This document shows, one piece after another, positions 6,440-7,006 of a stretch of DNA of 64,000 bases; position 1 is the stretch's first letter, and each line of letters opens with the position of its first letter. The stretch is from Erysipelothrix rhusiopathiae. GTDB taxonomy: Bacteria > Bacillota_I > Bacilli_A > Erysipelotrichales > Erysipelotrichaceae. The notes under the pieces were generated by a model. It had not been told where the DNA came from and ran no database searches. It saw only the letters and a list, made by a program, of their open reading frames with translations. A program made the translations under genes and the position numbers. The stretch is from positions 1,178,001 to 1,242,000 of the forward strand of contig NZ_LR134439.1 in the NCBI RefSeq assembly GCF_900637845.1, in the 5' to 3' direction.

Positions 6440-6457
6440 AATTAGGGTCACCTAATT
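6440..6457. promoter_or_regulatory. Inverted-repeat operator in the pepC leader (DtxR/MntR-like)
   Basis: Perfect arms AATTAGG (6440-6446) and CCTAATT (6451-6457) around GTCA. It starts at about +2 relative to the predicted pepC transcription start, where a bound repressor would block transcription. Confidence 0.55.
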
Positions 6458-6465
6458 TAATTGGT

Positions 6466-6494
6466 ATTATACGCCTGTATAATAAGGGTGTCAA
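6466..6494 (-). promoter_or_regulatory. pepC promoter
   Basis: On the minus strand a perfect TTGACA (complement of 6489-6494) and a perfect TATAAT (complement of 6466-6471) with 17 bp between. It is the best sigma-A consensus in the first 10 kb. Confidence 0.85.
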
Positions 6495-6498
6495 GAAA

Positions 6499-6511
6499 GG
6501 TTAGCCTAATT
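6499..6511. promoter_or_regulatory. Second DtxR-like box upstream of the pepC -35
   Basis: The plus strand carries AGGTTAGCCTAA (6498-6509). This matches the core and one flank of the classic DtxR/IdeR box, with TTAG and CTAA arms around a central C. It lies next to the pepC -35 and 10 bp from the first CIRCE. Confidence 0.5.
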
Positions 6512-6519
6512 GTCATTCA

Positions 6520-6546
6520 TTAGCACTCTTGTATTGACAGTGCTAA
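6520..6546 (+). promoter_or_regulatory. CIRCE element 1 (HrcA operator)
   Basis: TTAGCACTC (6520-6528), 9-bp spacer, CAGTGCTAA (6538-6546). It differs from the consensus inverted repeat by one base and overlaps the -35 of the hsp20 promoter. Confidence 0.9.
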
Positions 6547-6561
6547 TTAATGTGATATACT
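6534..6561 (+). promoter_or_regulatory. hsp20 promoter
   Basis: TTGACA (6534-6539), 16 bp, TATACT (6556-6561), with TG at 6553-6554 giving an extended -10. The -35 lies inside CIRCE 1. Confidence 0.85.
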
Positions 6562-6570
6562 AAAGGTGTA

Positions 6571-6597
6571 ATAGCACTCTATGTGGGCGAGTGCTAA
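6571..6597 (+). promoter_or_regulatory. CIRCE element 2 (HrcA operator)
   Basis: ATAGCACTC (6571-6579), 9-bp spacer, GAGTGCTAA (6589-6597), one mismatch from consensus. It is located in the 5' UTR immediately before the AGGAGGT ribosome-binding site of hsp20. Confidence 0.9.
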
Positions 6598-6613: not shown

Positions 6614-7006
6614 ATGAAACAAACAGTAAGACCGACAACACTTTTAGAAAGCTTGTTTGGTGATGATTTTATGAATAACGCAGGTTATGGAACCGGTGTT
6701 GATATCTATCGTGAAGAAGGAAGTTATTTCGTAGAAATTGAAATGCCAGGATTTGAAAAGGAAGATATTGATATTGAATTTAGTGGTGATATCTTATCCA
6801 TTCAAGCAACGCGTCGCGAATCAGAAGAAAAAGACGAAAAAAATTACTTCTATCGATCACGCAATCAAAAAAACATTAAACGTCAAATTCGCTTTGCGGA
6901 AGTTGATGCGAACGCAATTGATGCAAGCTACCAACAAGGTGTACTCCAAATTACACTTCCAACAAAAGTTGAAGAACACAACTCCAGTAAGATTCGTGTT
7001 CAGTAG
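6614..7006 (+). CDS. Small heat-shock protein, Hsp20/alpha-crystallin family
   Basis: 130-residue ATP-independent holdase chaperone. The alpha-crystallin domain covers about residues 28-120: VDIYREEGSYFVEIEMPGF, DIEFSGDILSIQA, and the conserved YQQGVLQITLP near the end. The C-terminal I-x-V (IRV) anchors oligomers. The start is ATG 6614, 7 bp after AGGAGGT; an in-frame ATG at 6581 lies inside CIRCE 2 and would have no ribosome-binding site. Two CIRCE elements flank the promoter, predicting HrcA repression and heat or misfolding induction. A GAAA-loop terminator follows, so it is monocistronic. No groES, groEL or dnaK is nearby. Confidence 0.93.
   Translation: MKQTVRPTTLLESLFGDDFMNNAGYGTGVDIYREEGSYFVEIEMPGFEKEDIDIEFSGDILSIQATRRESEEKDEKNYFYRSRNQKNIKRQIRFAEVDANAIDASYQQGVLQITLPTKVEEHNSSKIRVQ

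Follow-up and report, generated by a model that had tools for sequence, protein, structure and literature searches.

Why should the promoter of an aminopeptidase C gene in Erysipelothrix rhusiopathiae carry boxes of the type that is read by metal-dependent repressors? The window, which is the whole stretch of 64,000 nucleotides that was analysed (G000:C1:1178001-1242000), is taken from a genome of one contig of 1.77 Mb, and the locus in question has the gene order glmS, pepC, divergent hsp20, cca. The pepC product contains the PF03051 domain and has in place the apparent catalytic residues Cys68, His354, and Asn376, for which we assume this role, as is found for peptidases of the C1B type (PepC/bleomycin hydrolase); it matches none of the NCBIfam models. 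Because PepC is a cysteine (thiol) peptidase, it has no metal requirement. A sequence-only reading of this DNA had described a perfect pepC promoter, an inverted repeat covering its start site, and a second box upstream, and had attributed the pair to a DtxR/MntR-type regulon. The promoter is as described, with 12 of 12 consensus letters and a spacer of 17 on the minus strand (6494-6489 and 6471-6466), and the inverted repeat, AATTAGGGTCACCTAATT, is present as well (box 1). It spans about +2 to +19 of the pepC transcript relative to the inferred start site. The coordinates of all features are compiled in Table 1.

Table 1. Features of the pepC-hsp20 region (positions in the window) and of the regulator gene (positions in locus L009).
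Feature	Position	Strand	Basis or remark
pepC, aminopeptidase C/bleomycin hydrolase-type cysteine peptidase, 439 aa	5101..6420	-	ORF; PF03051, 582 bits; PDB 4k7c Aminopeptidase C, E 5e-128
Box 1, operator-type AATTAGG-GTCA-CCTAATT	6440..6457	.	8 bp downstream of pepC -10; halves 14/14 kept
pepC -10 TATAAT	6466..6471	-	6/6 conserved, 4 genomes
pepC -35 TTGACA	6489..6494	-	6/6 conserved, 4 genomes
Box 2, degenerate second operator copy, minus strand AATTAGG-CTAA-CCTTTCT	6494..6511	.	3 mismatches in own genome; contains 6498-6509
CIRCE (HrcA operator) 1, over hsp20 -35	6520..6546	+	1 mismatch
hsp20 promoter-like TTGACA-16-TATACT	6534..6561	+	sequence
CIRCE (HrcA operator) 2 of hsp20	6571..6597	+	1 mismatch
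hsp20, small heat-shock protein	6614..7006	+	PF00011; start 6614 chosen, mechanical ORF from 6581
MntR/SloR-type regulator, 217 aa	L009 7901-8554	-	PF01325, PF02742, and PF04023 all above cut-off

The second box had been read correctly in its letters, AGGTTAGCCTAA, but not in its assignment. The DtxR/IdeR core to which it had been ascribed is the wrong register, because the 19-bp consensus of these iron repressors, which we take to be TWAGGTTAGSCTAACCTWA, has no match with up to three mismatches in the window. Box 2 happens to match a part of that consensus; however, the gap between TTAGG and CCTAA is 4 bp here and 9 bp in that consensus. In the register of box 1, the letters belong to a degenerate copy of the same operator that meets the pepC -35 region, with base 6494 common to both. 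When the four pepC promoters of the genus are aligned, the half-sites of box 1 are kept at 14 of 14 positions and its centre at none of four; in box 2, TTAGG..CC is kept at 7 of 7 positions and each 7-base half at 6 of 7, again with none of four in the centre. The rest of the alignment has 7 of 17 spacer positions conserved, and the alignment as a whole 122 of 206 columns. Because both boxes follow the same conservation pattern, with kept halves and free centres, both would be operators. Within the window, three matches with at most three mismatches to the operator compare with an average of 5.3 in shuffled sequences, so box 2 taken alone is not significant by count and rests on its conservation. 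As judged from the sequence, the two boxes at pepC are genuine, and they form a conserved pair of operators of the type read by manganese repressors.

With the base composition of the window, the 14-letter palindrome has an expected count of 0.019 in 1.77 Mb; two copies are found. The exact sites of AATTAGGN4CCTAATT in the whole genome are that of pepC and that of an operon for a regulator and a metal importer, the promoter of which carries AATTAGGTTAGCCTAATT, 7 bp after its -10 region. A search for the same boxes at metal transport genes had been proposed along with the original reading, and all 14 half-site letters are indeed found at this promoter. The DtxR/MntR homologue that had been postulated is represented by one PF01325 protein above the Pfam cut-off, next to three weaker partial matches below it. 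This protein consists of a DtxR N-terminal helix-turn-helix domain, a metal-binding/dimerisation domain, and a C-terminal FeoA domain, and its gene heads the operon, with the importer genes behind it, which encode one lipoprotein that binds metal, one ATPase, and a pair of ABC-3 permeases.

Among solved structures, SloR (5cvi) is the first and ScaR (3hrs) the third match of the regulator, with residues 1-211 and 2-211 of its 217 residues aligned, respectively. Asp7, Glu99, Glu102, His103, Cys123, and His125, which we take to be the six ligand residues of manganese-type regulators, are all present. The iron repressors DtxR and IdeR belong to the same superfamily, but DtxR presumably has a cysteine at the position equivalent to Glu99. 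Position 160, which we assume to be an aspartate metal ligand in manganese-type regulators, is a histidine with an aspartate at 159, and the alignment with the SloR structure has a gap nearby. Of the DtxR/MntR-type regulon, the MntR side and the shared operator are thus retained, and the DtxR/IdeR type is given up, the regulator being nearest to the manganese repressors SloR and ScaR. It scores below the NCBIfam MntR cut-offs (best 121 versus 350 bits; Bacillus subtilis-type model 62 versus 138). The lipoprotein ranks highest with zinc AztC (191 bits, cut-off 350), followed by manganese EfaA (176) and MntC (173); manganese/iron models give the highest scores for the ATPase, and the SloB model does so for the permeases, all of them below the respective cut-offs. 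Because these cut-offs are not reached, the names MntR and manganese importer are given by domain content and similarity only. An Nramp importer as an additional regulon member is ruled out, since PF01566 is without a match in 13 of 13 genomes of the genus.

In these 13 genomes, which form the genus set, the shorter pattern TTAGGN4CCTAA has 33 exact sites versus 38 for the reversed control, so that the count alone is uninformative and the places matter. Ten sites belong to the regulator gene, six (L154, L156, L159, L160, L163, and L166) to metal-ABC operons similar to the importer described above, and four to pepC; eleven are within genes or frames, among them L164 at the end of a frame and the pair L002 and L210, which represent one gene in two genomes. 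The remaining two, L153 and L157, have the form AGCTTAGG..CCTAAGCTTT and, as judged by eye, resemble terminators. From the site-by-site sorting it therefore follows that, apart from the terminator-like pair, each extragenic site has one of three kinds of gene or operon behind it: that of the regulator, that of a metal importer, or pepC (22 sites outside genes: 16 before regulator genes and metal-ABC operons taken together, four before pepC, two terminator-like). Ten of the 13 genomes have the short box upstream of their regulator gene; an eleventh, G005, has it there with one mismatch, although its pepC box is perfect. The most distant regulators, those of G009 and G010 (41% and 33% identity; L055 and L056), have no exact box within up to 1,500 bases upstream, so that in these two genomes a change of the operator or of its location is possible. 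In G009, the regulator gene comes after the permease and lipoprotein genes; its promoter may therefore lie further off.

The placement of the operator is constant in 21 promoter sites and its four centre positions vary, the constancy of TTAGG..CCTAA itself being largely by construction, since the sites were chosen by that pattern. According to a simple scan, the distance from the -10 region to the box is 8 bp in all four pepC promoters and 6-7 bp in 11 of 11 boxed regulator promoters. For the six ABC promoters, the best -10 region is found 1-9 bp before the box; two of them, L154 and L156, have no credible -35 region, and a promoter is not recognised there. In G007 (L163, 3177-3289), the genes for the regulator and a metal-binding lipoprotein are divergent and have one box each. 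In G004 (L159, 2378-2391), a boxed metal-ABC operon is divergent from a gene that by eye resembles msrB (methionine sulfoxide reductase) and that might be an additional target.

A loose operator search in the own genome yields 91 sites, which is fewer than the 225 of the reversed control. For the 14-letter form, there are no sites with exactly one mismatch and six with two, five of which are within frames; the other one, L024, is located between frames, about 400 bp from the nearest start of a frame of at least 80 aa. Thirteen loci with three mismatches (L027-L039) comprise eight in frames, three that overlap gene starts or ribosome sites (L028, L029, and L031), and two between frames (L038 and L039); L011 and L012 add five more sites of this class, four in frames and one intergenic (1704076). 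Among the remaining sites of the 91, weaker operator targets may exist.

The DNA letters themselves establish that there is an operator, that its half-sites are exactly those of the importer operon, that it is found at promoter position, and that it is kept across the pepC-bearing genomes of the genus. It is highly probable that pepC is a member of an MntR regulon of the SloR/ScaR type in this Erysipelothrix clade. The same degree of confidence applies jointly to three inferred points, namely, that MntR binds the boxes, that manganese is the signal, and that repression results. A manganese-loaded MntR dimer would sit on box 1 at the start site and on box 2 against the -35 region, and the pepC promoter, which is of consensus strength, would be shut, as would that of the regulator-importer operon. 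When manganese drops, MntR would release its operators, and both import and PepC would rise.

Other explanations of the boxes would have to account for the same observations. It is hardly credible that box 1 is an inverted repeat formed by chance. For the short form TTAGGN4CCTAA, about two sites per genome would be expected, and one-third of its sites in the genus (11 of 33) are in genes or frames, but the full 14-letter form has the very low expectation given above, and none of the four pepC genomes has lost box 1, the centre of which is free and which occupies the promoter position usual for the regulon. In the transcript, the same letters could form a hairpin of a 7-bp stem and a 4-nt loop in the pepC leader, which would serve stability or attenuation and would not be a protein operator; a kept stem with a free loop fits this idea. 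Such a role is nevertheless very improbable, because the stem letters are identical in the four genomes, so there are no compensating changes in the stem, and because the same letters are found at the regulator and metal-ABC promoters as well as at box 2, which is upstream of the -35 region and, for that reason, not transcribed in the pepC mRNA.

A different matter is which gene and which metal the operators would serve. Unlikely, but deserving mention, is a scenario in which MntR binds and the divergent hsp20 is the target that matters, or the operators serve both genes. The intergenic region is shared, the end of box 2 is 22 bp before the hsp20 -35 region, and the order pepC-hsp20-cca is kept in four genomes. 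On the other hand, box 1 is downstream of the pepC -10 region at a spacing close to that of the regulator promoters, no exact box occurs near hsp20 in the six pepC-less genomes that have an hsp20 match (G002, G003, G006, G007, G010, and G012), and the hsp20 promoter already has two operators of the HrcA type. For the latter, with the CIRCE consensus presumed to be TTAGCACTC-N9-GAGTGCTAA, two sites are found in the window versus 0.02 expected. In one short intergenic region, HrcA-type and MntR-type operators are thus arranged back to back; the hsp20 product itself scores below the cut-off of the NCBIfam model Hsp18. Quite unlikely, too, is that another regulator reads the box, or that the regulator senses zinc or iron and the signal is not manganese. 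The operator is assigned by association, a zinc model is the best-scoring one for the importer lipoprotein, and Fur-like genes are present in the own genome (L028 and L031, according to visual inspection of the frames). Yet only one DtxR-family protein exceeds the cut-off, and in 10 of 13 genomes it is the product of the gene behind the box; among solved structures, SloR and ScaR come nearest to it, and the six ligand residues of the manganese type are present. Control of pepC by MntR in response to manganese is the preferred reading.

According to a protein search, pepC is found in 4 of the 13 genomes of the genus, with box 1 in all four, and in the family a pepC relative is encoded in 124 of 272 genomes. 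Thirty pepC loci of the family were inspected, namely, the four of the genus and 26 from other genera, 2 of which have less than 200 bases upstream. The exact box is absent from all 26, with 8 of 10 letters as the closest agreement, and among 13 of 80 loci of pepC relatives outside the family (L058-L070), the best agreement is 10 of 14 letters, with none convincing. Because the other pepC loci, as far as examined, are without the box, its link with pepC is confined to one clade, in which it arose or with which it came.

Aminopeptidases of the families M29 and M42 are metal-dependent. In a search for these two families, the own genome has three full-length M42 members, next to two weak partial matches, and one M29 gene. 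A single M29 gene is also found in the pepC-bearing genomes G001 and G011, and that of G005 (G005:C1:1010746-1011958) is broken, with stops and two overlapping pieces, the matches in the other 12 genomes being free of stops. Seven of the nine pepC-less genomes have two M29 genes, and G009 and G010 have one. This pattern fits the replacement of one metallo-aminopeptidase, with the qualifications that it effectively amounts to one evolutionary event and that three M42 genes remain. It is conceivable, though it should be taken as tentative, that PepC stands in for the metal-dependent aminopeptidases under manganese starvation and thereby spares manganese; this purpose is less certain than the regulation itself and draws on gene content only, with effectively one evolutionary event. 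In a still more speculative extension, peptide breakdown might shift from metallo-aminopeptidases to PepC when manganese is withheld by the host or the medium, and feeding on peptides might continue. If this was true, a metal sensor would govern a metal-free substitute enzyme at the time when the host withholds metals.

The closest known systems are those of the streptococcal manganese-dependent DtxR-family repressors SloR, ScaR, and PsaR, with near full-length matches of the regulator to two of the solved structures. These repressors are described to use inverted-repeat operators, with more than one per promoter, near the -35 and -10 regions, and repress manganese importers (PMC12096823, PMC3688865). 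At mntH, SloR is described to occupy paired cooperative sites, one of which overlaps the -35 region, and the SloR elements (AATTAA/TTAATT, 6-6-6) given there have the layout of AATTAG-N6-CTAATT found here (PMC12096823). In contrast to SloR, the half-site is AATTAGG and not AATTAA, and the boxes are also found at the gene of a cysteine aminopeptidase. Metal-independent enzymes that serve the cell when manganese is short are represented by GpmA and FdaB of Staphylococcus aureus glycolysis (PMC6684088, PMC9973326). No MntR regulation is predicted for GpmA (PMC6684088), and FdaB is under ArlRS. In Erysipelothrix, by comparison, control would come directly from the manganese-type regulator, and a peptidase takes the place of the glycolytic enzymes. 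A peptidase gene adjoining manganese-repressor operators is known from pepO-fimCBA of Streptococcus parasanguinis (PMC3688865). PepO, however, is a zinc metallopeptidase encoded next to the importer and, according to the title of a work cited there, not coordinately regulated, whereas pepC of Erysipelothrix is located far from the importer and has operators of its own.

The sequence-only reading had held that aminopeptidase C is not normally linked to iron or manganese control. A literature search that did not extend to most subscription journals retrieved no link of MntR or manganese control with pepC or aminopeptidases and no paper on Erysipelothrix together with MntR. In PMC10550928, both sought words occur in the reference list; the examined passages of PMC4105556, a paper retrieved for Erysipelothrix with manganese, have no pepC, aminopeptidase, or DtxR; and the main text of the manganese review PMC9936198 is without the word "peptidase". 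A peptidase tied to manganese-type control would be a new addition to a known kind of control. For Erysipelothrix, to which an animal pathogen belongs, a likely manganese operator can now be given.

Comparing the own genome with G011 (L173), PepC is 95% identical, and its neighbours Hsp20 and Cca are 69% and 73% identical, respectively. The high identity of PepC would reflect either an unusually strong constraint or a later transfer of pepC. The sequence upstream of pepC in G011 (L042 and L057) is the same as that of Erysipelothrix tonsillarum DSM 14972.
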